Of a stretch of DNA of 64,000 nt, positions 7,379-41,053 are shown in pieces (position 1 is the first letter of the stretch; each line of letters begins with the position of its first letter). A program made the position numbers and the translations under genes. Source of the stretch: Cordylochernes scorpioides (taxonomy: Eukaryota; Arthropoda; Arachnida; Pseudoscorpiones; Chernetidae). The notes beneath the pieces are model-generated. The model saw only the letters and a list, made by a program, of their open reading frames with translations. It was not told where the DNA came from and did not search any database. The stretch is from positions 11,247,425 to 11,311,424 of the forward strand of contig CP092869.1 of the NCBI GenBank assembly GCA_030710605.1. The letters run 5' to 3'.

Positions 7379-7493
7379 TGTGGAGATATCCAAACTCTGT
7401 GAAGCCTCGTAAAACTTGAGAAAATCTAACGTCAAAAAGGTTTTACATTCACTTTCAAAGCTAGAATATTCTTTATACAAATTTATAACGGGA

Positions 7494-9727
7494 ATGGAAC
7501 CAATATGTGATTTTGATAAAACTTGCTCCAACATAAGCAAATGTTCTTTTCTCTGGACAATTGAAAACATTAAATATATGAAAAAAGGTAAAATGTTAAC
7601 AAGTGCTAAATTTTTTTCAGGTGTAAATGATCCTAAGAAATGGACGATGCATATTACTCGCAATATCATAAGAAATGAAGCGTATTTATCACTCGGGGTT
7701 TTTTTGAACGCCCCAGGAAAAGTAAACTACGCCATTATAAAATATTCACTAATAAATTTATCTCGGAATAAAGAGTATTGTATGAAAAGTGGTTATGTAT
7801 TTAATGGGCTTCCTGGTGGTAGTTGTTGGGAGGTTCCTGAATTCATTAAAGAGGATATTTTAAAAGAAAGATGGAGCGAAATACTGCCTGATGGCAAATT
7901 GACCATTTTCATTGAAATAAAGGTTCGGAATGTTGAAAATGAAACCAATAACAGCCATGGTCTTGTAGAGCGAATCAATGATCCCTATTGCAGATTGACA
8001 AAGGACATGTTAGGCTATTCAGGCTTATTGATTGCAAATGTACAAGGTCATGTCCCACCATTCAAGTTTCCTGATTTCTGTTGGAAAGATGACCTGTTCC
8101 ACATGATTGAACACCAGAAATTCTCAGATATTACATTGTCTGTATGTGGACGCCCATTTTATGCTCATCAGAACCTATTATCTGCTAGGTCCCCAGTATT
8201 TAAAGCCATGCTTACTCATGATATGAACGAGAAGAAGGAAAAATTGATTAAAATTGTTGACGCAGAACCGATGGTATTTGAAGAGCTGCTAAGATATATC
8301 TACACTGGGAAAGCTCCCAACCTGGAAAGTATGGCTGCGAAGCTCATGGAAGCTGCGGACAAGTATGGCCTGGAGAGGCTCAAGACTTTGTGCGAAGTAT
8401 ATTTAGGCTCCAATCTTACAGTAGATAATGCGGCAGAAGTGCTGGTTTTGGCAGATATGCACAATGCTCCACGTCTCAAGTCCTTCGCCATATATTACAT
8501 CAACACACATTCACTTGATGTGGTGGATTCTCAAGGTTGGAAGGTAAACTTGATTCAACATCCAAATATTATAGCTGATCTAAGCTTGGCTCAGAACAAA
8601 CAGGATTCACCATCCTGTTGGGAAATAGTTCCTTTCCAAACAAAGAAATCCAATGTTGATAGATATTGGTGTTGGACCAATATTCCGACATCTCAAACAT
8701 CGTTCAAGTGGTTAATTAACAAAGTCAGCCTAAAGTCAATATATTTAGGAACGCAAAAATTAAAGGTCCAGCATTTTATGAGAACAAAAACAAAGACGCG
8801 AGGTGGTGTCTGGTAGCCTTATTTTCTAGAAATAGCAGAGATTCTGAAAAATACCTGTCAATCTATCTAGAGCTTCTCTCCTCTAACAAAGATCAATTAA
8901 ATACCACATTTTCATTTTCTATTTTGAAATTGTCAGGAGAAATATTTAACACTACTGAACATAATTATACATTTATACGACGTCATCAAGCTGGTAATAA
9001 ATATTTTATGAAAAGTGAATTATTATTTGGGAAAGAAAGCCTTCTACAAAATTGTGAAAATTTGACAATTCTCTGTGAAATTATCAAAGTTGATAAATCT
9101 GATACCACCTCTGGGATTATTAACAACGTCTCTGAGGTTCCAGATTGTACGTGGGCGAAAGACATTGGATCTTTGTTCGAGACTCAGGAATTTTCCGACG
9201 TTATTCTAACGACAGGAAACAAAAGATTCGCAGCCCATAAGAATATCCTGTCAGCCAGCTCATCTGTATTTGCGGCCATGTTTAAAAATAAATCTGATTT
9301 GAACATTGTAGAAATAAATGACATTGAGGCAGCAGTATTCAATGAGATTCTCAACTTTATCTACACGGAACAATCCCCCAACCTGGACAATTTGGCAGAA
9401 CAGCTACTGGAAGCTGCAGACAAATACGGATTGGAAAATTTGAAAGTCGTGTGCGAGGAATTCTTAGCTGCCCATCTCCCAGTAGAGAAGGCTGCAGAAA
9501 TTATGTTACTGGCAGATAGATGCAAAGCTTTTCAGCTCATGTCCTTTATAATCAACTTTATTGTTCGACTATCGGATAAAATAATAGAAGATTGGCTTTC
9601 AACCTTCAGTTCTTATCCTTACATAATGAATGAATTCTATAAAGCACTGACTCATAAACAAATTCACTTCAATAAAAAATCTAAGAGTTTTTCGCTTGAT
9701 TTGCATACAGATAATAATTACAGTTAA
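7494..9727 (+). pseudogene. Double MATH-BTB (TDPOZ) gene, left copy, one-base frameshift
   Basis: Same architecture as the intact right copy: MATH, BTB with 3-box/BACK-like helices, second MATH, second BTB. SPOP-type MATH-BTB proteins bind substrates through MATH and Cullin-3 through BTB. The ATG at 7494 (MEPICDF) is chosen because it is conserved in both copies with a good context (ggaATGg) and precedes MATH by about 17 residues. The frame holds through BTB1 (KFSDITLSVCGRPFYAHQN) and the start of MATH2, then ends at 8816. At 8755-8759 this copy has five A where the right copy has six, so the rest (about 8760-9727, ending at TAA) continues in the next frame. It lacks its own ATG. Either this is a recent pseudogene or a homopolymer sequencing error. 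If real, the truncated product would keep one full MATH-BTB unit. Confidence 0.85.
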
Positions 9728-12190: not shown

Positions 12191-12650
12191 ATGATTGCAT
12201 GCAGATATATATATATATATATATATTATATTTTTAAAAAAAGTTGAGAGTTTCTGCTTGATATTTGATTCATGTTGAGGATTATTGTAATGGTGGTGCA
12301 GTCGTGGCTATAATATTGAAAGAATAATAACAAAAATGGTTTTGATCAGATATTGTTTTAATTGTGAACCCATGGAATATATATAAAACAATTTGATAAA
12401 AGTAATGCCTGTCTTAAGGCGTATAAATAAATAAAACAAAAGATTATTTACATAATTACAAAAACTTTGGGTCGGCCAGCGGGGAAGAACAACAACGAGT
12501 TTTTATGTGCAAAGCGTGACCTCTGGCGGTCGATTTAACAAAATATTTGTATCTATGAAATTATAATTTTAAATAAAATAATGCCTTAATATAACATTTT
12601 AAATAATACATTTATATAACATATATATAGTGTAAAAACTATATAATAAA
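12191..12650. other. Left-arm-specific sequence without gene
   Basis: Starts with an (AT)n tract at 12207-12228. The rest has no partner in the right arm, where the gypsy element and another repeat stand instead. No domain recognised. Confidence 0.5.
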
Positions 12651-12651
12651 A

Positions 12652-12669
12652 GAAATGGGTATTTGTATA

Positions 12670-12725
<56 letters not shown>

Positions 12726-12742
12726 CAAATACCCATTTCTTG
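12652..12742. repeat. Palindrome around a (TA)n tract
   Basis: agaaatgggtatttgtataa (from 12652) is complemented by ttatacaaatacccatttct (to 12740), with about 45 bp of TA repeat between. Reading frames of repeated Tyr-Ile here are translations of the TA tract. Confidence 0.85.
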
Positions 12743-12800
12743 GTTTCTCAAGAAGCCTCTGGGACCAAAAATATTTTTGGTCGCAATGGTACAGCCTACT

Positions 12801-12840
12801 CCACGCTGACGATCGCCAACAGCGCGAAACGCGTTCGTGT
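12801..12840 (+). ncRNA. Diverged hammerhead ribozyme, single copy
   Basis: Stem I strand ccacg, core CTGACGA (the N7 position tolerates C), stem II tcgc/gcgc around loop caaca, then GAAAC, GCGTT and returning strand cgtgt. Stem II has one mismatch (t/c) and stem I has lost its last pair. The cleavage site is GUU rather than GUC. Weak or inactive is likely. It mirrors the copy at 31000-31039 in the right arm. Confidence 0.7.
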
Positions 12841-13107
12841 ATGACTTTTCTTGATATATCAAGAAATTGGGTTGGCCAAATATCACGGAGCAAGTTAAAT
12901 AAACGTTAGTTTATTTTTGCTCCACTAGATGGCGCTCTGCTATCTAAAAAGTACATGTGCTTGTGGTCAGGATGTGCCTTCTTTATTTTAAATAAGTATT
13001 ATTAAGTAAACATTTTTAAAGACACATATATTTCGCTTTATTTTTAGTTGCTAGCTCTTTTTTGAAACAATTTTCTTCTAGCACTTACCGAAAAAAAAAT
13101 ATAAATT

Positions 13108-26164: not shown

Positions 26165-26372
26165 TTAAAAAGGCATATTTTGGATAAAAATATAATTTAT
26201 TTTACCAATATTTTAGTTGGCTGAATGCCAACCTTTATCAAGGTATTATAACATTTTAAAGTGTGTCAACAACATTAATATGTTATAACACCTTGATAAA
26301 GGTTGGCGTTCAGTCAACTGAAATATTGATGAAATTAATGATATTTTGATCCAATATATGCCTTTTTAATTA
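26165..26372. mobile_element. Foldback MITE, right-arm counterpart of 13108-13310
   Basis: Arms ttaattaaaaaggcatattt and caatatatgcctttttaatt with inner gttggctgaatgccaacc / ggttggcgttcagtcaac. Flanking sequence also matches the left arm, which places the satellite insertion just downstream. Confidence 0.8.
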
Positions 26373-26535
26373 AATACATATATATATGAAAAGGAAAAGG
26401 CATCTCCTTATCGTGCAACTGAAAGTTGCTGATGGCTGGCGCCATCTATCGGAATAAATATCAACTATTCTCGTTGATTTTTAATTATTCCAGAATTGGC
26501 CAAATACCCATTCTTGATTAATCAAGAAAAGCTAA

Positions 26536-26575
26536 CCACGGACGCGTTTCGGGCTGTTGGCCCTCATCAGCGTGG
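26536..26575 (-). ncRNA. Hammerhead ribozyme, satellite unit 1
   Basis: On the minus strand: stem I ccacg, CTGATGA, stem II gggc-caaca-gccc, GAAAC, GCGTC, stem I return cgtgg. All invariant core bases are present (type I, minimal stem III). Confidence 0.88.
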
Positions 26576-26888
26576 TGCAAGCTGTACCTCAAAGACCAAA
26601 AAAAAAAAAAAAAATGGTCATTAAGGCATCCTGAAATATCATGAAACGGGTAGTTAAGGCCAGAATTGCGTGAGGACGCTACACAATGTGAAAAAATAGT
26701 ACAAATGTAACATTGTACTGGGATAGGGTGCATAAATTATGAAAAGGAAAAGGCATCTCCTTATCGTGCAACTGAAAGTTGCTGATGGCTGGCGCCATCT
26801 ATCGGAATAAATATCAACTATTCTCGTTGATTTTTAATTATTCCAGAATTGGCCAAATACCCATTCTTGATTAATCAAGAAAAGCTAA

Positions 26889-26928
26889 CCACGGACGCGT
26901 TTCGGGCTGTTGGCCCTCATCAGCGTGG
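26889..26928 (-). ncRNA. Hammerhead ribozyme, satellite unit 2
   Basis: Identical 40-nt core to unit 1; minus strand. Confidence 0.88.
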
Positions 26929-27241
26929 TGCAAGCTGTACCTCAAAGACCAAAAAAAAAAAAAAATTGGTCATTAAGGCATCCTGAAATATCATGAAACG
27001 GGTAGTTAAGGCCAGAATTGCGTGAGGACGCTACACAATGTGAAAAAAATAGTACAAATGTAACATTGTACTGGGATAGGGTGCATAAATTATGAAAAGG
27101 AAAAGGCATCTCCTTATCGTGCAACTGAAAGTTGCTGATGGCTGGCGCCATCTATCGGAATAAATATCAACTATTCTCGTTGATTTTTAATTATTCCAGA
27201 ATTGGCCAAATACCCATTCTTGATTAATCAAGAAAAGCTAA

Positions 27242-27281
27242 CCACGGACGCGTTTCGGGCTGTTGGCCCTCATCAGCGTGG
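27242..27281 (-). ncRNA. Hammerhead ribozyme, satellite unit 3
   Basis: Identical 40-nt core to unit 1; minus strand. Confidence 0.88.
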
Positions 27282-27591
27282 TGCAAGCTGTACCTCAACG
27301 ACCAAAAAAAAAAAAATTGGTCATTAAGGCATCCTGAAAAATCATGAAACGGGTAGTTAAGGCCAGAATTGCGTGAGGACTCTACACAATGTGAAAAATA
27401 GTACAAATGTAACATTGTACTGGGATAAGGTGCATAAATCATGAAAAAAGAAAAAGGCATCTCCTTATCGTGCAACTGAAAGTTGCTGATGGCTGAGCGC
27501 CATCTATCGGAATAAATATCAACTATTCTCGTTGATTTTTTTATTCCATAATTGGCCAAATACCCATTCTTGATTAATCAAGAAAAGCTAA

Positions 27592-27631
27592 CCACGGACG
27601 CGTTTCGGGCTGTTGGCCCTCATCAGCGTGG
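27592..27631 (-). ncRNA. Hammerhead ribozyme, satellite unit 4
   Basis: Identical 40-nt core to unit 1; minus strand. Confidence 0.88.
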
Positions 27632-27942
27632 TGCAAGCTGTACCTCAACGACCAAAAAAAAAAAAATTGGTCATTAAGGCATCCTGAAAAATCATGAAAC
27701 GGGTAGTTAAGGCCAGAATTGCGTGAGGACTCTACACAATGTGAAAAAATAGTACAAATGTAACATTGTACTGGGATAAGGTGCATAAATCATGAAAAAA
27801 GAAAAAGGCATCTCCTTATCGTGCAACTGAAAGTTGCTGATGGCTGAGCGCCATCTATCGGAATAAATATCAACTATTCTCGTTGATTTTTTTATTCCAT
27901 AATTGGCCAAATACCCATTCTTGATTAATCAAGAAAAGCTAA

Positions 27943-27982
27943 CCACGGACGCGTTTCGGGCTGTTGGCCCTCATCAGCGTGG
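27943..27982 (-). ncRNA. Hammerhead ribozyme, satellite unit 5
   Basis: Identical 40-nt core to unit 1; minus strand. Last unit before the palindrome centre. Confidence 0.88.
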
Positions 27983-28390
27983 TGCAAGCTGTACCTCAAC
28001 GACCAAAAAAAAAAATTGGTCATTAAGGCATCCTGAAAAATCATGAAACGGGTAGTTAAGGCCAGAATTGCGTGAGGACTCTACACAATGTGAAAAAATA
28101 GTACAAATGTAACATTGTACTGGGATAAGGTGCATAAATCATGAAAAAAGAAAATGGCATCTCCTTATCGTGCAACTGCAACTTTCAGTTGCACGATAAG
28201 GAGATGCCTTTTTCTTTTTTCATGATTTATGCACCTTATCCCAGTACAATGTTACATTTGTACTATTTTTTCACATTGTGTAGAGTCCTCACGCAATTCT
28301 GGCCTTAACTACCCGTTTCATGATTTTTCAGGATGCCTTAATGACCAATTTTTTTTTTTTTTTTTTTTGGTCGTTGAGGTACAGCTTGCA

Positions 28391-28430
28391 CCACGCTGAT
28401 GAGGGCCAACAGCCCGAAACGCGTCCGTGG
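28391..28430 (+). ncRNA. Hammerhead ribozyme, satellite unit 6
   Basis: Same core, now on the plus strand; first ribozyme after the inversion. Confidence 0.88.
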
Positions 28431-28750
28431 TTAGCTTTTCTTGATTAATCAAGAATGGGTATTTGGCCAATTATGGAATAAAAAAAAAAAATCAACGAGA
28501 ATAGTTGATATTTATTCCGATAGATGGCGCTCAGCCATCAGCAACTTTCAGTTGCACGATAAGGAGATGCCTTTTTCTTTTTTCATGATTTATGCACCTT
28601 ATCCCAGTACAATGTTACATTTGTACTATTTTTTCACATTGTGTAGAGTCCTCACGCAATTCTGGCCTTAACTACCCGTTTCATGATTTTTCAGGATGCC
28701 TTAATGACCAATTTTTTTTTTTTTTTTTGGTCGTTGAGGTACAGCTTGCA

Positions 28751-28790
28751 CCACGCTGATGAGGGCCAACAGCCCGAAAAGCGTCCGTGG
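28751..28790 (+). ncRNA. Hammerhead ribozyme, satellite unit 7, stem III change
   Basis: Plus strand. GAAAC has become GAAAA, which breaks the C-G pair of the two-pair stem III and the acgcgt palindrome. Activity is probably reduced. Confidence 0.82.
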
Positions 28791-29099
28791 TTAGCTTTTC
28801 TTGATTAATCAAGAATGGGTATTTGGCCAATTATGGAATAAAAAAATCAACGAGAATAGTTGATATTTATTCCGATAGATGGCGCTCAGCCATCAGCAAC
28901 TTTCAGTTGCACGATAAGGAGATGCCTTTTTCTTTTTTCATGATTTATGCACCTTATCCCAGTACAATGTTACATTTGTACTATTTTTTTCACATTGTGT
29001 AGAGTCCTCACGCAATTCTGGCCTTAACTACCCGTTTCATGATTTTTCAGGATGCCTTAATGACCATTTTTTTTTTTGGTCGTTGAGGTACAGCTTGCA

Positions 29100-29139
29100 C
29101 CACGCTGATGAGGGCCAACAGCCCGAAACGCGTGCGTGG
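29100..29139 (+). ncRNA. Hammerhead ribozyme, satellite unit 8, cleavage-site change
   Basis: Plus strand. The cleavage triplet GTC is GTG. Hammerheads need H (not G) at position 17, so this unit should not self-cleave. Confidence 0.82.
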
Positions 29140-29451
29140 TTAGCTTTTCTTGATTAATCAAGAATGGGTATTTGGCCAATTATGGAATAAAAAAATCAAC
29201 GAGAATAGTTGATATTTATTCCGATAGATGGCGCTCAGCCATCAGCAACTTTCAGTTGCACGATAAGGAGATGCCTTTTTCTTTTTTCATGATTTATGCA
29301 CCTTATCCCAGTACAATGTTACATTTGTACTATTTTTTCACATTGTGTAGAGTCCTCACGCAATTCTGGCCTTAACTACCCGTTTCATGATTTTTCAGGA
29401 TGCCTTAATGACCAATTTTTTTTTTTTTTGGTCGTTGAGGTACAGCTTGCA

Positions 29452-29491
29452 CCACGCTGATGAGGGCCAACAGCCCGAAACGCGTCCGTGG
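29452..29491 (+). ncRNA. Hammerhead ribozyme, satellite unit 9
   Basis: Intact core, plus strand. Confidence 0.88.
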
Positions 29492-29808
29492 TTAGCTTTT
29501 CTTGATTAATCAAGAATGGGTATTTGGCCAATTATGGAATAAAAAAATCAACGAGAATAGTTGATATTTATTCCGATAGATGGCGCTCAGCCATCAGCAA
29601 CTTTCAGTTGCACGATAAGGAGATGCCTTTTTCTTTTTTCATGATTTATGCACCTTATCCCAGTACAATGTTACATTTGTACTATTTTTTCACATTGTGT
29701 AGAGTCCTCACGCAATTCTGGCCTTAACTACCCGTTTCATGATTTTTCAGGATGCCTTAATGACCAATTTTTTTTTTTTTTTTTTTGGTCGTTGAGGTAC
29801 AGCTTGCA

Positions 29809-29848
29809 CCACGCTGATGAGGGCCAACAGCCCGAAACGCGTCCGTGG
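29809..29848 (+). ncRNA. Hammerhead ribozyme, satellite unit 10
   Basis: Intact core, plus strand; last unit of the array. Confidence 0.88.
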
Positions 29849-30011
29849 TTAGCTTTTCTTGATTAATCAAGAATGGGTATTTGGCCAATTATGGAATAAA
29901 AAAATCAACGAGAATAGTTGATATTTATTCCGATAGATGGCGCTCAGCCATCAGCAACTTTCAGTTGCACGATAAGGAGATGCCTTTTTCTTTTTTCATA
30001 TATATATATAT

Positions 30012-30702
30012 GTTCATAAAGGGCACATCTTGGATTCAATAAATAAACTTTTATTTCCGATATTTCAATGGGCTAAACGGCCATCTTTTTCAAGGATCTC
30101 ATCCCCTCTCGTGGTAAGCCGCGCATTACACTTGAGACACGGGCGTCTCACAATCTCTTCGGGCGAAAATCATCCAAATGAAATGTAATGTATACAAATA
30201 AATATCGTACAATACTAATTAAAATAAATGAATAAATAGAGTGAAAAGTAAATATCTATATATACAAAATAAATATTCGGCTATTGCATTATGAATGAAG
30301 ACATTTCACTGAAGTACATATATACATAGAGGTTCCTATTCTAGGAGCATCTAAATTGTGTGTACATACATAGAATAGGAACCTCTATGTATATATGAAC
30401 TTCAGTGAAATGTCATCATTCATAATGCAATAGCCGAATATTTATTTTGTATATATAGATATTTACTTTTCACTCTATTTATTCATTTATTTTAATTAGT
30501 ATTGTACGATATTTATTTGTATACATTACATTTCATTTGAATGATTTTCGCCCGAAGAGATTGTGAGACGCCCGTGTCTCAAGTGTAATTCGCGGCTTAC
30601 CACGAGAGGGGATGAGATCCTTGAAAAAGATGGCCGTTTAGCCCATTGAAATATCGGAAATAAAAGTTTATTTATTGAATTCAAGATGTGCCCTTTATGA
30701 AC
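30012..30702. mobile_element. 691-bp foldback element with ~330-bp near-perfect arms
   Basis: Starts gttcataaagggcacatctt and ends with its complement aagatgtgccctttatgaac. The arms stay paired almost to the centre near 30355, where a ~35-bp loop (aggagcatctaaattgtg) remains. The arm layout (aaagg..cat..ttggat, gatatttcaatgggctaaac, ctttttcaagg) parallels the smaller aaaggcatatattggat MITEs. No coding frame. Confidence 0.85.
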
Positions 30703-30999
30703 AAATATAACAATATGGATTGCTCTATTTTCAGAATATATATATATATTCGGTAAGGGCCAGAGAAAATTGTTTCAAAAAAGAGCTAGCAACTAAAAAT
30801 TATGCGAAAAATATTTGTCTTTAAAAATGTTTACTTAATAATACTTATTAAAAATGAAGAAGGCACATCCAGATCACAAGCACATGTGCTTTTTAGATAG
30901 CAGAGCGCTATCTAGTGGAGTAAAAATAAATTAACGTTTATTTAACTTGCTCCGTGATATTTGGCCAACCCAATTTCTTGATAAATCAAGAAAAGTCAT

Positions 31000-31039
31000 C
31001 CACGAACGCGTTTCGCGCTGTTGGCGCTCGTCAGCGTGG
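31000..31039 (-). ncRNA. Hammerhead ribozyme, single-copy relative in the right arm
   Basis: Minus strand: ccacg, CTGACGA, stem II gcgc-caaca-gcgc (fully paired), GAAAC, GCGTT, cgtgg. The second stem II pair is flipped relative to the satellite (g-c to c-g), which supports the fold. The cleavage site is GUU, allowed but usually slower. Flanked by cttgataaatcaag and, further out, aagtcatcc. Protein-like frames at 30947-31192 are chance. Confidence 0.78.
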
Positions 31040-31120
31040 AATAGGCTGTACCATTGCGACCAAAAAGATTTTTGGTCCCAGAGGCTTCTTGAGAAACCAA
31101 GAAATGAGTATTTATATAAT

Positions 31121-32017: not shown

Positions 32018-32031
32018 TGGTGGCAGCGGTA
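32018..32031 (+). promoter_or_regulatory. Primer binding site of the gypsy element
   Basis: tggtggcagcggta follows the LTR directly; its TGG start fits pairing with a tRNA CCA end. I cannot name the tRNA. Confidence 0.65.
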
Positions 32032-32312
32032 AACTGAATTCATAAAGAAGGTCGTTGTTCGAAGAAAATTTGAAATTCGACATCAAGCAAGCTTAGAAGC
32101 GGTAAACTGAATTCATAAAGAAGGTCGTTGTTCGAAGAAAATTTGAAATTCGACATCAAGCAAGCTTAGAAGCGGTGAACTGAATTCATAAAGAAGGTCG
32201 TTGTTCGAAGAAAATTTGAAATTCGACATCAAGCAAGCTTAGAAGCGGTAAACTGAATTCATAAAGAAAGTCGTTGTTCGAAGAAAATTTGAAACTTGAC
32301 ATCAAGCAAACA
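32026..32312 (+). repeat. 73-bp tandem repeat in the element leader, about four copies
   Basis: The phrase gcggtaaactgaattcataa recurs with the same phase at 32031, 32104, 32177 and 32250, followed each time by aggtcgttgttcg and gacatcaagcaa. The first repeat overlaps the primer site, so each unit carries part of a primer-site-like sequence (gcggtaaactg). Confidence 0.9.
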
Positions 32313-32351
32313 TTTTGGTAAGTTATATTATATTATAAGTAAATCTTTATA

Positions 32352-33395
32352 ATGTCCCAAAATTATAATTGTGTAGCCCCAGAACCTTTTAATTTTTCAA
32401 ATCCAGGTGATTGGCCAAAATGGATTAGGAGATTTGAACGTTTTAGGCAGGCAAGCGGGTTAATTAATAACCCAGAAAATGAGCAAGTTAATATGCTCGT
32501 GTACTGCATGGGTGATAATGCAGATGACATTTTGTTGTCATGTAAAATAGCAAGTGACCAATTAGAAAATTATGATAAAGTTATTGAATGCTTTGAGAGT
32601 CACTTTATTCCAAGACGTAATATAATTTATGAAAGGACAAGATTTAATCAAAGATGTCAGCAGGAAGGGGAAAAGGTGAATGAATTTATCACAGCACTCC
32701 ATAGCCTAGCTGAGCACTGCAATTTTGAGATGTTACATGATGAGTTGATTAGGGATAGGATAGTTGTTGGAGTAAGGGATAGAGCATTATCTGAAAGAAT
32801 GCAACTTGATACAGACTTGACCTTAGTAAAAGCCACACTAATGGCAAAGCAATTAGAAAGTGTCAAAGAACAGCAGTCTAGCCTTTACCAACAAGATTCT
32901 GTAGATCAAATAAAGAAAATGCCTAATCATATAAAAGAAACAAAAAGGCACGAACCAAAAATAAGACAATTCAAGTCAAACCAGTTGGGAGGGTCATCAC
33001 ATGGATGCACCAGGTGTGGCAATTCAAATAATCATGATTGGAAAAATTGTCCAGCTATGAACTCGTATTGTAATAAATGCATGAAAAAGGGCCATTATGC
33101 CAAAGTATGTAGATCAGAAGCTATAAATGAAATAAAATCAGAGATAGCTTTTCTGGGATCTGTAGAAGATAATTCTAAGAAATGGATAGTATCAATTAAG
33201 GTAAATAATAGACAAGTTAATTTTAAAATTGACACCGGAGCTGATGTCAACGTGCTCCCCCTACAATATTATTATCAAAGTTTCCAAAGAATAAAACTGG
33301 AAAAATCTGACAAAGTATTACAAGGTCCAAATGGAATACCCTTGGAAACAGTGGGAATGATCCACGTGAACTTCAAAATAAAGGCCAGCACTTAA
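32352..33395 (+). CDS. gag: Gypsy gag with protease (347 aa)
   Basis: Structural polyprotein that packages element RNA. The ATG at 32352 is the first after the leader and opens MSQNYNCVAPEPFNFSNPGD, a start I know from arthropod gypsy gag. A capsid-like helical region follows (GDWPKWIRRFERF, VYCMGDNADDIL). Two zinc knuckles lie near residues 217-255 (CTRCGNSNNHDWKNC, CNKCMKKGHYAKVC). The aspartic protease active site is FKIDTGADVNVLP, with D294-T295-G296. The frame ends at 33393-33395, partway through the protease. The missing end (KIYIVDKLKQPLLSRETSEK) is open in the next frame, so gag and pol are separated by a one-base shift. This could be a recent indel or a programmed shift, but the place, inside the protease, favours an indel. 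Confidence 0.9.
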   Translation: MSQNYNCVAPEPFNFSNPGDWPKWIRRFERFRQASGLINNPENEQVNMLVYCMGDNADDILLSCKIASDQLENYDKVIECFESHFIPRRNIIYERTRFNQRCQQEGEKVNEFITALHSLAEHCNFEMLHDELIRDRIVVGVRDRALSERMQLDTDLTLVKATLMAKQLESVKEQQSSLYQQDSVDQIKKMPNHIKETKRHEPKIRQFKSNQLGGSSHGCTRCGNSNNHDWKNCPAMNSYCNKCMKKGHYAKVCRSEAINEIKSEIAFLGSVEDNSKKWIVSIKVNNRQVNFKIDTGADVNVLPLQYYYQSFQRIKLEKSDKVLQGPNGIPLETVGMIHVNFKIKAST

Positions 33396-33475
33396 ACTCG
33401 AAAATATACATTGTTGATAAACTAAAGCAGCCACTTCTCTCTAGGGAGACAAGTGAAAAATTAAACATTGTTAGA

Positions 33476-36259
33476 ATGATTCAGCAATTATCATCAAATT
33501 TTTTAAATCCAAAAAGAGAGTTTCCAAAAATATTTAATGGTTTAGGACATGCTAAAATAAATTACAAAATATCCCTACAACCAGATGCGAAACCATATGC
33601 TTTATGCACCCCTAGGAGAGTTCCAATTCCCTTAATGAAACAGGTAAAGGAACAACTTGAAGAGATGACCAGGCTAGGAGTCATTGAATCAGTAGAAGAG
33701 CCGACTGAGTGGTGTGCGGGAATGGTTGCAGTATCGAAACCAGGAGGAAAAATAAGAATTTGTGTTGATTTAACGAAGCTAAATCAGTATATAAGAAGAG
33801 AAAATTATCCGCTACCTGCGACAGAGCATATCCTGGGACAGCTGGGAAATGCTTGCTATTTTTCCAAGCTAGATGCAAATTCTGGATTTTGGCAGTTTGA
33901 GTTAGCTAAAGAATCCCAAAAACTAACCACCTTTATAACGCCATTTGGCAGGTTCTTTTTCAAAAGAATCCCATTTGGAATAACGTCGGCACCAGAAATC
34001 TTTCAAAGAAAGATGACTCAGCTTCTGGGCAATATAGAAGGGGTTGTATGCTTCATGGATGATATTGTAGTATACGGATCTTCCTTAGAAGAACATAACG
34101 AAAGGGTACGCCAAGTTTTGAAGAAAATCCAAGAAGAAGGGATGACACTCAACCCAGAAAAGTGTCAATTTGGAGTTAAAACTGTAAAATTCCTGGGACA
34201 CACATTGAGTTCAGAAGGCTTATTCATTGACGAAGAAAAGCTCGATGCTATTACAAAAATGGAGGCGCCTAGATCAACAAAAGAATTGAAGTCTTTCTTA
34301 GGCATGGTGAATTATTTAGGAAAATTCATTCCCAACCTTGCGGATAAATTACAACCCTTGAATTCGTTACTAAGTACAAAAAACGAGTGGGTTTGGGATG
34401 AACCTCAGAAAAAGAGCTTTAACCTACTGAAACAAGAGTTAGTATCTAGACCTAACCTCGCTTTATTTGATCCCTCAAGAACGACCATAGTATCGGCTGA
34501 TGCTTCTTCATTTGGAATAGGTGGTGTTCTAAGACAAGAACAACCTGATGGATCTTTAAAACCTATAGCTTATGTATCTAGAACACTTTCAGAAACGGAA
34601 AAAAGATACAGCCAAATTGAAAAAGAAGGACTGGCTATAGTATGGACTTGTGAACGACTAAAGGATTATGTTACAGGTATTAAAATCCATATTGAAACAG
34701 ATCACAAACCACTGATTGCCATCTTTACGTCCAAATCCTTGGAAGACATGACTCCCAGACTTCAGCGATTAAAAATGAGGATGATGAGATATTCTTATCA
34801 AATAAGTCACATTGCTGGCAAAAAGCAAATAGTGGCTGATATGTTATCAAGGAAGCCTATGTCTAAACCACATAAAGATGAATTGGAAGAAGAACTTTCT
34901 GCGTACATCCAAGCCATTGAATTTCCAGCAACAGAAGAAAGACTTTTGGAGATTTCTAGAAAGCAAAAGGAAGATTCACTTTGCTCTCAATTGGCTAAAT
35001 ACTGTATGAGTGGATGGCCTAAGAATAAAAGAGAAGTAGATCCAGAACTAAGAGGATACTGGCAATTTCAGGAGGACCTGACCTATCAGAATGGTCTTCT
35101 TCTTAGAGGACAAAGAATTCTAATCCCTAAGACATTGAGGAAAGATATCCTTGAGAAATTGCACCAAGGCCATTTTGGGATCAATAAATGCAGATCTAGA
35201 GCAAAAGAATCGGTTTGGTGGTTAGGAATTTCCCAAGAGATTGAAAGGATGGTTTCGTCGTGTACAAAATGCTTGAAGGAGAGAAAACCCAAGCATGAAC
35301 CATTGATGCCCTCAGAATTTCCGATCAGACCTTGGCAAAAAGTCGGAATGGATCTCTTTTATCTAAATGGGAGATGGTATCTAATTGTATGTGATTACTA
35401 TTCCAGGTACCCAGAAATATCACTTTTACAAAATCTAACTGCTCAAGAAGTAATAGGCCGTCTTAAATCTATATTTGCTAGGCATGGAACACCTGAGACT
35501 GTTAGAAGCGATAATGGACCACAATTCCAAAAAGTTCTGGGTTCCGAATTTTCAAAATTTTCTAAGGAATGGTCTTTCAAACATATCACATCCAGCCCGA
35601 AATTCCCTCAAAGCAATGGATTTATTGAAGCAATTATCAAGAATATAAAGCAAAGTTTTAAGAAAGAAGAAGATTGCTATCTGACTCTTCAAGCATATAG
35701 AACGATGCCCCTGGAAAGTGGTTATAGTCCAGCTGAACTATTAATGGGACGACGCCTTAGGACCTCTGTTCCAGCAATAGAATCATCACTGATGCCAAGG
35801 TACTTGGACTCCGAAGCTTTGCAAGAAAGAGAGAAAAGGAGGGTGATCAACCAGAAGCGCCTATATGATAAACGACACGATGTACATAGCTTGCCTCCGC
35901 TTCAACAAGGGGACAGCGTTTGGGTTAGAGATCAAAGAGTAAAAGGAAAAGTTCTTCACAAATCCGAAGAACCGCGTTCCTATTGGGTACAAACTCCCCA
36001 AGGAAAAGTTAGGCGAAACAGACTCCACCTCACACCTCTACCAAAAATGGGAAGTACCATGGATGCTTCTGAGGATGACCAGGATGACCAGGAGCAAGAG
36101 ACCGAGGAGGATTGCCCTACACAAACGGCCTCATCTACAAGAGATGGAAGGATGCAGAGGGACAACCAAGACCAGGATCCAGAGAAGAGCCTCCCTTCAA
36201 TGCCAGCCGTGCATACAAGATATGGAAGGGCAGTCAAGATACCTCGAAGGTTCCTGTAA
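33476..36259 (+). CDS. pol: Gypsy pol: reverse transcriptase, RNase H, integrase (927 aa from first ATG)
   Basis: Copies element RNA into DNA and integrates it. The frame is open upstream to about 33392, so the ATG at 33476 is only the first in-frame one. RT: IRICVDLTKLNQYI, FSKLDANSGFWQFEL, and catalytic FMDDIVVYG with D195 and D196. RNase H: VSADASSFGIGGVL, YSQIEKEGLAIVW and TDHKPL. Integrase: zinc motif HQGHFGINKC and CTKC, then catalytic D626 (GMDLFY), D679 (RSDNGPQF) and E718 (SNGFIEAIIKN). A basic, acidic-patch tail follows. All catalytic residues are present. TAA at 36257-36259 is followed by the polypurine tract. Length is normal for a gypsy pol lacking the protease end. Confidence 0.93.
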   Translation: MIQQLSSNFLNPKREFPKIFNGLGHAKINYKISLQPDAKPYALCTPRRVPIPLMKQVKEQLEEMTRLGVIESVEEPTEWCAGMVAVSKPGGKIRICVDLTKLNQYIRRENYPLPATEHILGQLGNACYFSKLDANSGFWQFELAKESQKLTTFITPFGRFFFKRIPFGITSAPEIFQRKMTQLLGNIEGVVCFMDDIVVYGSSLEEHNERVRQVLKKIQEEGMTLNPEKCQFGVKTVKFLGHTLSSEGLFIDEEKLDAITKMEAPRSTKELKSFLGMVNYLGKFIPNLADKLQPLNSLLSTKNEWVWDEPQKKSFNLLKQELVSRPNLALFDPSRTTIVSADASSFGIGGVLRQEQPDGSLKPIAYVSRTLSETEKRYSQIEKEGLAIVWTCERLKDYVTGIKIHIETDHKPLIAIFTSKSLEDMTPRLQRLKMRMMRYSYQISHIAGKKQIVADMLSRKPMSKPHKDELEEELSAYIQAIEFPATEERLLEISRKQKEDSLCSQLAKYCMSGWPKNKREVDPELRGYWQFQEDLTYQNGLLLRGQRILIPKTLRKDILEKLHQGHFGINKCRSRAKESVWWLGISQEIERMVSSCTKCLKERKPKHEPLMPSEFPIRPWQKVGMDLFYLNGRWYLIVCDYYSRYPEISLLQNLTAQEVIGRLKSIFARHGTPETVRSDNGPQFQKVLGSEFSKFSKEWSFKHITSSPKFPQSNGFIEAIIKNIKQSFKKEEDCYLTLQAYRTMPLESGYSPAELLMGRRLRTSVPAIESSLMPRYLDSEALQEREKRRVINQKRLYDKRHDVHSLPPLQQGDSVWVRDQRVKGKVLHKSEEPRSYWVQTPQGKVRRNRLHLTPLPKMGSTMDASEDDQDDQEQETEEDCPTQTASSTRDGRMQRDNQDQDPEKSLPSMPAVHTRYGRAVKIPRRFL

Positions 36260-38705: not shown

Positions 38706-40937
38706 TTAACTGTAATTATTATCTGTATGCAAAACAAGCGAGAAACTCTTAGGTTTTTTATTGAAGTGAATTTGTTTATGAGTCAGTGCTTTATAGAATT
38801 CATTCATTATGTAGGGATAAGAACTGAAGGTTGAAAGCCAATCTTCTATTATTTTATCCGATAGTCGAACAATAAAATTGATTATGAAGGACATGAGCTG
38901 AGAAGCTTTGCATCTATCTGCCAGTAACAGAATTTCTGCAGCCTTCTCTACTGGGAGATGGGTAGCTAAGAATTCCTCGCACGTGACTTTCAAATTTTCC
39001 AAGCCGTATTTGTCTGCAGCTTCCAGTAGCTGTTCTGCCAAACTGTCCAGGTTGGGGGATTGCTCCGTGTATATAAAGTTGAGTATTTCATTCAATACTC
39101 CCGCCTCAATGTCATTTATTTCCACAATGTTCAAATCAGATTTATTTTTAAACATGGCCTCAAATACAGATGAGCTGGCTGCCAGGATATTCTTATGGGC
39201 TGCGAATCTTTTGTTTCCTGTCGTTAGAATAACGTCGGAAAATTCCTGAGACTCGAACAAAGATCCAATGTCTTTCGTCCACGTACAATCTGGAACCTCA
39301 TAGTCGTTGTTAATAATCCCACAGGTGGTATTAGGTTTATCAACTTTGATAATTTCACAGAGAATTGTCAAATTTTCACAATTTTGTAGAAAGCTTTCTT
39401 TCCCAAATAATAATTCACTTTTTATAAAATATTTATTACCAGCTTGATAACGTCGAGTAAATGTATAATTATGTACGGTAGTGTTAAATATTTCTCCTGA
39501 CAATTTCAAAATAGAAAATGAAAATGTGGTATATAAATGATCTTTGTTAGAGGAGAGAATCTCTAGATAGATTGACAGGTATTTTTCAGAATTTCTGCTA
39601 TTTCTAGAAAAGAAGGCTACCAGACACCACCTCGCGTCATTGTTTTTGTTCTCATAAAATGCTGGACCTTTAATTTTTTGCGTTCCTAAATATATTGACT
39701 TTAGGCTGACTTTATTAATTAACCACTTGAACGATGTTTGAGATGCCGGAATATTGGTCCTACACCAATATCTATCAACATTGGATTTCTCTGTTTGGAA
39801 GGGTAACATTAACAAGCAAGGCTGTGAATTCTGTTTAATCTGAGCCAAGCTTAGCTCAGCTATAATATTTGGATGTTGAATCAAGTTTACCTTCCAACCT
39901 TGAGAATCCATCACATCAAGTGAATGTGTGTTGATGTAATATATGGCGAAGGACTTGAGACGTTGAGCATTGCGCATATCTGCCAAAACCAGCACTTCTG
40001 CCGCATTATCTACTGTAAGATTGGAGCCTAAATATACTTCGCACAAAGTCTTGAGCCTCTCCAGGCCATACTTGTCCGCAGCTTCCATGAGCTTCGCAGC
40101 CATACTTTCCAGGTTGGGAGCTTTCCCAGTGTAGATATATCTTAGCAGCTCTTCAAATACCATCGGTTCTGCGTCAACAATTTTGATCAATTTTTCCTTC
40201 TTCTCGTTCATATCATGAGTAAGCATGGCTTTAAATACTGGGGACCTAGCAGATAATAGGTTCTGATGAGAATAAAATGGGCGTCCACATACAGACAATG
40301 TAATATCTGAGAATTTCTGGTGTTCAATCATGTGGAACAGGTCATCTTTCCAACAGAAATCAGGAAATTTGAATGGCGGAACATGACCTTGTACATTTGC
40401 AACCAACAAGCCTGAATAGCCTAACATGTCCTTTGTCAATCTGAAATAGGGATCATTGATTCGCTCTACAAGACCATGGCTGTTAATGGTTTCATTTTCT
40501 TCATTCCAAACCTTTATTTCAATGAAAATGGTCAATTTGCCATCAGGCAATATTTCGCTCAATCTTTCTTCTAACATATCCTCTTTAATGAATGCAGGAA
40601 TCTCTAAACAACTACCGTTAGGAAGCCCATTGAAGACATAACCACTTTTCATACAATATTCTTTATTCCGAGATAAATTTATTAGTGAATATTTTATAAT
40701 GGCGTAGTTTACTTTTCCTGGGGCTTTCAAATTAACCCCGAGTGATAAATACGCTTCATTTCTTATGATATTGCGAGTAATATGTATCGTCCATTTTTTA
40801 GGATCATTTACACTTGAAGAAAATGTAGCACTTAATTTTTCATCTTTTTTCATATATTTAAGGTTTTCAATTGTCCAGAGAAAAGAACATTTGCTTATGT
40901 TGGAGCAAGTTTCATCAAAATCACATATTGGTTCCAT
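38706..40937 (-). CDS. Double MATH-BTB (TDPOZ) protein, 743 aa
   Basis: Likely substrate adaptor of the SPOP type: MATH binds degrons and BTB recruits Cullin-3 in a nuclear or cytosolic ubiquitin ligase (known for the family, inferred here). Domains: MATH1 about 17-145 (FLWTIENL, LPDGKLTIFIEIKV); BTB1 about 199-300 (KFSDITLSVCGRPFYSHQN, SPVFKAML, LRYIYTGKAPNL); BACK/3-box-like helices 301-360 (NAAEVLVLAD); MATH2 about 402-531, more diverged (FKWLINKVSLKSIYLGTQ, LTILCEIIKV); BTB2 about 557-655 (EFSDVILTTGNKRFAAHKN, FIYTEQSPNLDSL); 3-box-like 656-715. SPOP-like proteins usually have one MATH and one BTB, so two full modules in one chain is unusual. Start: ATG at 40937 (MEPIC), conserved in both copies; an upstream in-frame ATG at 40946 exists only here. 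A 3' splice site lies at about 41054, so an upstream exon is likely. Single open exon, no intron seen inside. Confidence 0.92.
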   Translation of the reverse strand: MEPICDFDETCSNISKCSFLWTIENLKYMKKDEKLSATFSSSVNDPKKWTIHITRNIIRNEAYLSLGVNLKAPGKVNYAIIKYSLINLSRNKEYCMKSGYVFNGLPNGSCLEIPAFIKEDMLEERLSEILPDGKLTIFIEIKVWNEENETINSHGLVERINDPYFRLTKDMLGYSGLLVANVQGHVPPFKFPDFCWKDDLFHMIEHQKFSDITLSVCGRPFYSHQNLLSARSPVFKAMLTHDMNEKKEKLIKIVDAEPMVFEELLRYIYTGKAPNLESMAAKLMEAADKYGLERLKTLCEVYLGSNLTVDNAAEVLVLADMRNAQRLKSFAIYYINTHSLDVMDSQGWKVNLIQHPNIIAELSLAQIKQNSQPCLLMLPFQTEKSNVDRYWCRTNIPASQTSFKWLINKVSLKSIYLGTQKIKGPAFYENKNNDARWCLVAFFSRNSRNSEKYLSIYLEILSSNKDHLYTTFSFSILKLSGEIFNTTVHNYTFTRRYQAGNKYFIKSELLFGKESFLQNCENLTILCEIIKVDKPNTTCGIINNDYEVPDCTWTKDIGSLFESQEFSDVILTTGNKRFAAHKNILAASSSVFEAMFKNKSDLNIVEINDIEAGVLNEILNFIYTEQSPNLDSLAEQLLEAADKYGLENLKVTCEEFLATHLPVEKAAEILLLADRCKASQLMSFIINFIVRLSDKIIEDWLSTFSSYPYIMNEFYKALTHKQIHFNKKPKSFSLVLHTDNNYS

Positions 40938-41053
40938 TTCCGTCATAAATTCGTATAAAGAATGTTCTAGCTTTGAAAGTGGATGTAAAACCTTTTTGAC
41001 GTTCGATTTCCTCAAGTTTTACGAGGCTTCACGGAGTTTGGATCGCTCCACAC

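Follow-up and report, generated by a model that had tools for sequence, protein, structure and literature searches.

The 64,000-nt stretch of the genome of the pseudoscorpion Cordylochernes scorpioides analysed here (contig CP092869.1, positions 11,247,425 to 11,311,424; called the window below) carries at 26389-29999 a head-to-head array of noncoding units of about 350 bp with ten hammerhead-like segments. Tandem Repeats Finder (TRF) returned two ~350-bp arrays, 26389-28178 and 28178-29999, each of 5.1 copies with 97-98% matches, and the arms are mutual reverse complements with a 1-nt spacer at 28182 (inverted-repeat arms 28005-28181 and 28183-28359). The motif CTGATGA is found 12 times in the window: five times on the − strand and five times on the + strand within the element, and twice elsewhere; the bare 7-mer is not enriched in the window, 19 of 100 shuffles reaching 12 occurrences. 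A preliminary description of the locus had reported units of about 350 bp arranged head to head with five hammerheads each way, and the arrays, the reverse-complementary arms and the motif counts bear this out. The features of the element are listed below, the palindrome centre being placed from the sequence and the arm coordinates, and the flanking duplications from the sequence.

26378..26388, no strand: left copy of a probable target-site duplication (TSD; ATATATATATG, 11 bp), low complexity
26389..28181, − strand: left arm, 5.1 copies (four full units between two partial ones), hammerhead sense on the − strand
26521..26586, − strand: hammerhead segment 1, intact
26874..26939, − strand: hammerhead segment 2, intact
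27227..27292, − strand: hammerhead segment 3, intact
27577..27642, − strand: hammerhead segment 4, intact
27928..27993, − strand: hammerhead segment 5, intact
28170..28193, no strand: palindrome centre, within the unit's own GCAACT..AGTTGC hairpin
28178..29999, + strand: right arm, 5.1 copies (four full units between two partial ones), hammerhead sense on the + strand
28380..28445, + strand: hammerhead segment 6, intact
28740..28805, + strand: hammerhead segment 7, GAAAAGCGTC at the stem III position, self-complementary stem III segment broken
29089..29154, + strand: hammerhead segment 8, GTG at the cleavage site, predicted inactive
29441..29506, + strand: hammerhead segment 9, intact
29798..29863, + strand: hammerhead segment 10, intact
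30002..30012, no strand: right copy of the probable TSD (ATATATATATG, terminus of a longer TA run), low complexity

The conserved core CUGANGA..GAAA..NUH and stems I and II are intact in eight of the ten segments. The earlier statement that every unit has all hammerhead features is therefore right for these eight and wrong for the units at 28740 (stem III) and 29089 (GTG). At the level of sequence, three other proposals also stand: a type I hammerhead, a retrozyme-like unit (noncoding, 338-360 bp, 39% GC) and a self-complementary ACGCGU segment in stem III, compatible with a dimeric ribozyme. Copies are mono- to multimeric, and no stop-to-stop open reading frame (ORF) of at least 150 aa lies between 25018 and 32342, hence none within the element. 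Folded as a single strand, stem III would need a 2-nt loop and the centroid fold leaves it open, while the minimum-energy fold of a single segment mispairs the hammerhead core; a dimer with forced ACGCGU pairing lies 0.5 kcal/mol above the dimer optimum. The whole unit folds far better than shuffles (z −7.9), a result uninformative on the hammerhead itself.

The units of the window are of two subfamilies. In the left arm, 26389-27292 is subfamily A (three units, one of them partial) and 27293-28181 is subfamily B; the switch is clean, near 27293, and everything beyond it, including the centre and the entire right arm, is B.

The core pattern has 10,829 matches in the 2.62-Gb genome and a wider core pattern 24,758, the reversed controls giving 0 in both cases; a second hammerhead family, with a GCGC/GCGC stem II and a GTT cleavage site, has 7,610 matches. 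The window element is thus a member of a dispersed insertion family with target duplications, so that the label "satellite" given to it at first is unsupported. In the first 100 listed of the wider-core matches, the base preceding the cleavage point (H17) is C in 54, T in 39, A in 7 and G in none, while stem II pairs completely in 92 (GGGC/GCCC in 54, compensated GCGC/GCGC in 29). A lack of G at H17 and a compensated stem II are what one would expect from selection for a functional ribozyme, although these copies are related to one another and part of the core was set by the search pattern. In the array of locus L048, units are near-identical (at most 1 difference in each of the 12 comparisons listed), which fits reverse transcription rolling round a circle and also tandem duplication.

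The anatomy of the insertions was read from copies on C1 (L031-L070), taken unselected in the order of the core-pattern listing and all with an intact core (the list-order sample), against a 338-bp reference unit (L048:3021-3358) in which position 1 is TACAGC and cleavage falls after 46. Inner 5' ends are scattered in this sample, and outer 3' ends lie mostly at two sites: a short end, S, at unit position ~193-203 (..GCCTTTTTCTTAAT), and a long end, L, at ~246-255 (..TATTTTTTCACAT). Beside two-arm copies there are others with one arm, whose 5' end varies and whose 3' end is S or L. The + arm of L042 begins exactly at position 47; 5' ends at the cleavage site were not used for the question of circular versus linear templates, the sample being biased by the choice of intact cores.

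Target duplications of varying length flank many of these copies. A score of at least 11 is reached at 20 of 40 loci versus 5.4% of mismatched flank pairs, and a score of at least 10 at 27 of 40 versus 9.5%; five further loci score 7-8, and several of the long duplications are plain TA repeats. L057, which runs off the edge of its fetched piece, was left out of this count, and no flanking duplication was seen at L031-L033 (three copies inside a larger repeat) or at L034, L055 and L056. Comparison of flanks gave no clear empty allele among the matches listed. The family thus bears the marks of retrotransposition (TSD, variable 5' end); the window copy's own 11-bp duplication, of low complexity, would by itself be weak evidence.

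Divergence is the rule in this family. In a similarity-chosen list (best 150 of 272 matches to the window unit), 28 of 40 loci carry units on both strands, every one of the 28 in divergent orientation; in the first 100 matches listed for either family, neighbours no more than 1.5 kb apart are divergent in 7 cases and convergent in 1 for family 1, and divergent in 8 and convergent in 0 for family 2. An artefact of local assembly at the window palindrome is unlikely, because the divergent layout is common to many loci and, in the list-order sample, target duplications flank whole palindromes. Indeed, a local satellite expansion with inversion, or an assembly error, would suit the tandem units and the TA-rich edges, but thousands of dispersed core matches, a consistent orientation and the flanking duplications leave it barely credible.

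The outer ends are paired in a specific manner. Among the two-strand clusters of L031-L070 with both ends in the fetched piece, 17 of 20 have one S and one L end, none being S/S or L/L; L043 and L044 represent a single insertion within duplicated sequence, which brings the independent S/L clusters to 16, and the other three are the decayed fragments L034 and L035 and the non-divergent nested L056. Clusters touching locus ends and matches below 80% identity or 25 nt are left out of this analysis, whose table has 30 rows, some of them redundant (L002 is L024; L013, L027 and L030 are parts of one locus). Four further loci of C1 (L049, L050 at 3059, L069 and L070) are S/L by eye with a second arm of ~10-20 nt and were not counted. 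Similarity-chosen loci at C3:15.56, C5:81.49, C24:134.0 and C24:164.6 Mb are likewise L/S or S/L, as are C1:103.9 Mb (L013 and L030) and C1:135.9 Mb (L012 and L026) on joining neighbouring pieces; C12:73.7 and C13:33.56 Mb, with only one outer end within the fetched sequence, were excluded from the S/L counts. By eye, the nested locus at C7:48.7 Mb (L020) shows S then L. A DNA-level fold-back or miniature inverted-repeat transposable element (MITE)-type transposon, with terminal inverted repeats and a hammerhead carried by chance, would also have an inverted architecture in TA-rich targets, and another near-perfect inverted repeat adjoins the element (29997-30717); with ends that are usually S and L instead of identical, duplications of variable length, and, in the sample, a mixture of two-arm copies and one-arm copies whose 5' ends vary, we regard it as extremely unlikely.

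The two arms of a locus resemble each other. Variable sites match between arms at 32 of 35 versus 60% expected if independent (five informative columns, linked), which makes it probable that the two arms were copied from a single RNA or RNA lineage. Identity is higher between the arms of one locus (0.971, 13 loci) than between loci (0.951, 300 pairs), which is suggestive only, poly-T columns and segments below 30 nt being omitted from these counts. Agreement between arms is also what a cDNA would give by folding at its own end and copying itself, as proposed for the palindromes of rotifer Penelope-like elements (PLEs), whose authors favoured self-priming on an antisense template (PMC3846280). 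This snap-back would suit a palindrome centre within a hairpin and, for the window copy alone, two S ends. Self-priming fails for unequal outer ends, however, because a self-copied arm must end where the other arm ends, and 17 of 20 clusters have one end of each kind; in addition, the two arms have different inner breakpoints at many loci, and the window arms differ in unit subfamily. We thus judge snap-back very unlikely.

PLEs themselves are present in this genome. Many retroelements with GIY-YIG and reverse transcriptase (RT) domains were found, the endonuclease being N-terminal in some (the clade that we take to be Naiad) and C-terminal in others; L084 was uninformative as a view of the 3' end of the N-terminal type. 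Among the matches listed, 11 of 135 GIY-YIG loci have both strands, all 11 divergent, and the 3' region of the C-terminal type has both strands at 17 of 30 loci, all 17 divergent; with these 17 of 17 and the 28 of 28 of the retrozyme, "unusual" is unsupported as a description of the head-to-head layout. In a listing of the PLE "tail" (40 candidates scored), 13 of the 17 loci have it on a single arm, one (C2) has it on both an outer and an inner unit, and 3 have it on no arm, an arm missing from the tail listing being weak evidence that the tail is absent. In two further PLE pairs (C24:65.16 and C23:24.15 Mb), the partner arm's short end was seen.

This architecture has published counterparts. 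Rotifer PLEs have head-to-head pseudo-long terminal repeats (pLTRs), with a tail optional on one and a TSD that can flank the whole (PMC3846280). The PAc PLE protein of Anolis cuts and extends both target strands and starts internally at two sites, which account for the genomic "tail" (PMC11167929). The paired S and L ends of the retrozyme, both lying within the unit and occurring together in 17 of 20 clusters, resemble this tail and speak against mobilisation by APE-type (apurinic/apyrimidinic endonuclease) machinery of long interspersed nuclear elements (LINEs), with palindromes arising by twin priming. Variable 5' ends and TSDs of variable length are features of LINEs, and they do fit the family; the window also has several long ORFs for RTs of the non-LTR (long terminal repeat) type. 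To our knowledge, however, twin-priming inversions are not palindromes with the element's 3' region at both edges, and we consider the LINE explanation unlikely.

The sequence anatomy, the dispersal, the duplications, the divergence, the S/L pairing in the sample and the matching PLE architecture are seen directly, and the reading that we consider likely is that the window element is a metazoan-type noncoding hammerhead retrozyme of ~340-350 nt that arrived as a single insertion by PLE machinery; the palindrome is then explained by its insertion signature, that is, target duplications and paired short and long 3' ends. In the mechanism that we infer, retrozyme arrays would be transcribed, and the hammerheads, likely acting as dimers through ACGCGU, would cut the multimers into units, which would probably then be circularised. 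A PLE protein would cut both strands of an AT-rich target, and each target 3' end would prime reverse transcription inside the retrozyme RNA, one arm starting from S and the other from L. Each reverse transcriptase would run for a few nucleotides to several turns, and the joining of the two cDNAs head to head would leave a divergent palindrome between TSDs. Target-primed reverse transcription at two ends, one starting at S and the other at L, would account for the divergence, the TSDs, the unequal outer ends and the unequal inner breakpoints.

A more specific version, which we put forward tentatively as possible though not probable, is that a PLE dimer copies one circular retrozyme RNA from S and L at once, occupancy of S forcing the partner to L, so that the palindromes would be fossils of single two-ended integrations. 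The window copy, a two-subfamily mosaic with S at both outer ends and the sole short/short palindrome seen among the loci examined, would then come from two RNAs, each copied from S. Two RNA molecules in one event would account for both the S/S ends and the subfamily switch; post-insertion recombination is an alternative, and a single locus cannot decide.

Besides the limit on the PLE tail count, several points weigh against PLE mobilisation of a hammerhead retrozyme. The window copy has two S ends in place of an S/L pair; L020 and L056 depart from a clean divergent layout; and the high-similarity locus at C24:27.28 Mb (L014) has neither canonical end, its 3' ends lying by eye at unit positions ~12 and 335, which raises the question of a second pair of start sites. 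Duplications are uninformative in (TA)n, and many targets are of this kind. As to the ribozyme, a 5-kb search with Hammerhead_HH9 of Rfam matched each of the ten segments, five on either strand (21.3-26.5 bits, E 0.0019-0.089), and none reaches the curated cut-off of 52 bits, nor do those of L048 and L083 (26.5-28 bits); the covariance-model check proposed at first was thus positive for the match and negative for the cut-off, and is suggestive only. The folding of a lone 66-nt segment is unremarkable versus shuffles (z −1.2).

The link to the PLEs of this genome has its own gaps. A BLAST comparison of the unit with 12 PLE loci turned up nothing beyond short matches and, in or near two of the loci, retrozyme fragments; no PLE bearing the retrozyme's 3' sequence was found among these 12. 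A hammerhead regular expression matched nothing in the 12 loci, nor in 13 with a looser version, and no Rfam hammerhead match at E of at most 1 was obtained in the seven PLE loci scanned. The PLE 3' regions of L072, L075 and L081 contain CTGACGA-R-GACAAAA..TTTTGTC-GAAACGTC, minimal and hammerhead-like with a self-complementary ACGT; with one unpaired base before stem II allowed, the exact motif has 3 copies in 3 of 13 PLE loci and none in the window, so we take a PLE hammerhead as a lead only. In vitro, moreover, Anolis PAc used similar start sites on the top and bottom strands, inserted without need of an active hammerhead and had unprocessed RNA as its dominant substrate (PMC11167929); circles are thus not required, and strict S/L pairing is not predicted by those results alone.

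Compared with known systems, the window element appears to work like a metazoan retrozyme in most sequence-level respects, the Rfam cut-off being the exception. It shares with the non-LTR retrozymes of coral, mussel and axolotl noncoding tandem units of ~170-400 nt with a type I hammerhead, mono- and multimeric copies, a GC content below 45% (39% here), thousands of copies and TSDs of more than 4 bp (PMC7229834). The very short stem III and the dimeric cleavage of the axolotl retrozyme would also have their parallel in the short stem III and the dimer predicted here; newt and axolotl type I hammerhead repeats have units of ~330-350 bp and a very short palindromic stem III, with dimeric cleavage (predicted here), but differ in hammerhead and unit sequence (PMC7229834). 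A difference from these retrozymes is that many insertions here form divergent palindromes in which an S end is paired with an L end; in the main text of PMC7229834, "inverted" does not occur and "palindrom" occurs once, on a tetraloop, and its cited parts make no mention of palindromic insertions for the newt and axolotl repeats. Schistosome W-elements are also hammerhead-bearing repeats, with autosomal copies and a TSD suggested for one, and no paired-end palindrome is described for them in the cited parts of PMC8490949. The likeness to the PLEs of rotifers and Anolis lies in the head-to-head inverted copies, the one-arm "tail", the TSD, the AT-rich target and the two internal initiation sites (PMC3846280, PMC11167929). 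Head-to-head layout, TSD and a tail on one arm are all found in the family, the S/S window copy lacking the last. The element is nevertheless not itself a PLE as judged from its ORFs: it encodes no telomerase-like RT or GIY-YIG endonuclease (no ORF of at least 150 aa), and its unit is without clear similarity to the PLE 3' regions compared here. Retrozymes thus appear to carry a PLE-like integration mark on a sequence of their own that is not PLE-like.

How retrozymes are mobilised in animals has been an unanswered question. PLEs have been named as a strong candidate mobiliser on the grounds of shared hammerheads, tandem copies and co-occurrence (Cervera and de la Peña, PMC7229834; PMC7761336); the insertion signature described here is evidence for PLE mobilisation independent of shared features and co-existence. 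Sampled insertions in a family thousands strong bear a specific PLE-like mark, the divergent palindrome whose 3' ends are one short and one long, and this makes the PLE hypothesis directly testable. The family would also be a large natural record of PLE integration, including the two-start, two-strand model as an alternative to self-priming. We found no report of palindromic retrozyme insertions in the open-licence PMC literature, as far as its accessible text goes.

Copies of the second family in the window, recognised by sequence:

12727..13076, + strand: family-2 copy with a damaged hammerhead (GATC for the GAGC region, CGTGT)
30763..31113, − strand: family-2 hammerhead retrozyme copy (CTGACGA GCGC..GCGC GAAACGCGTT)

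A family-2 insertion elsewhere (L083) has L on one side and S on the other, by eye. At S, families 1 and 2, otherwise different, both have GGAGATGCCTT and then a T-rich stretch, and at L both have TTTTTTCA, family 2 being judged from one two-arm copy; these shared sequences are possibly a common start signal for the reverse transcriptase. At 12649-12750, a family-2 fragment is mirrored on either side of a (TA)27 tract.

Other repeats surround the element. A near-perfect inverted repeat at 29997-30717 (347-nt arms, 97%, 27-nt spacer) abuts it and looks like a fold-back or MITE-type element in a TA tract. The strong hairpin at 26211-26323, with sub-cut-off scores against miRNA models, is probably a MITE-like repeat, because similar sequence recurs at L040, L081 and L017; Rfam miRNA matches at the palindrome centre and neighbouring hairpins, also below cut-off, were set aside as structural look-alikes. 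Farther away, two very similar BTB/MATH (SPOPL-like) coding regions lie in opposite orientation ~30 kb apart, at 7413-9727 (+), where the region is split over two overlapping frames, and at 38706-41018 (−). Finally, within 32025-36259, a 73-bp tandem repeat (3.9 copies) stands immediately upstream of two long ORFs, a Gypsy-type gag/pol pair as typed by eye.

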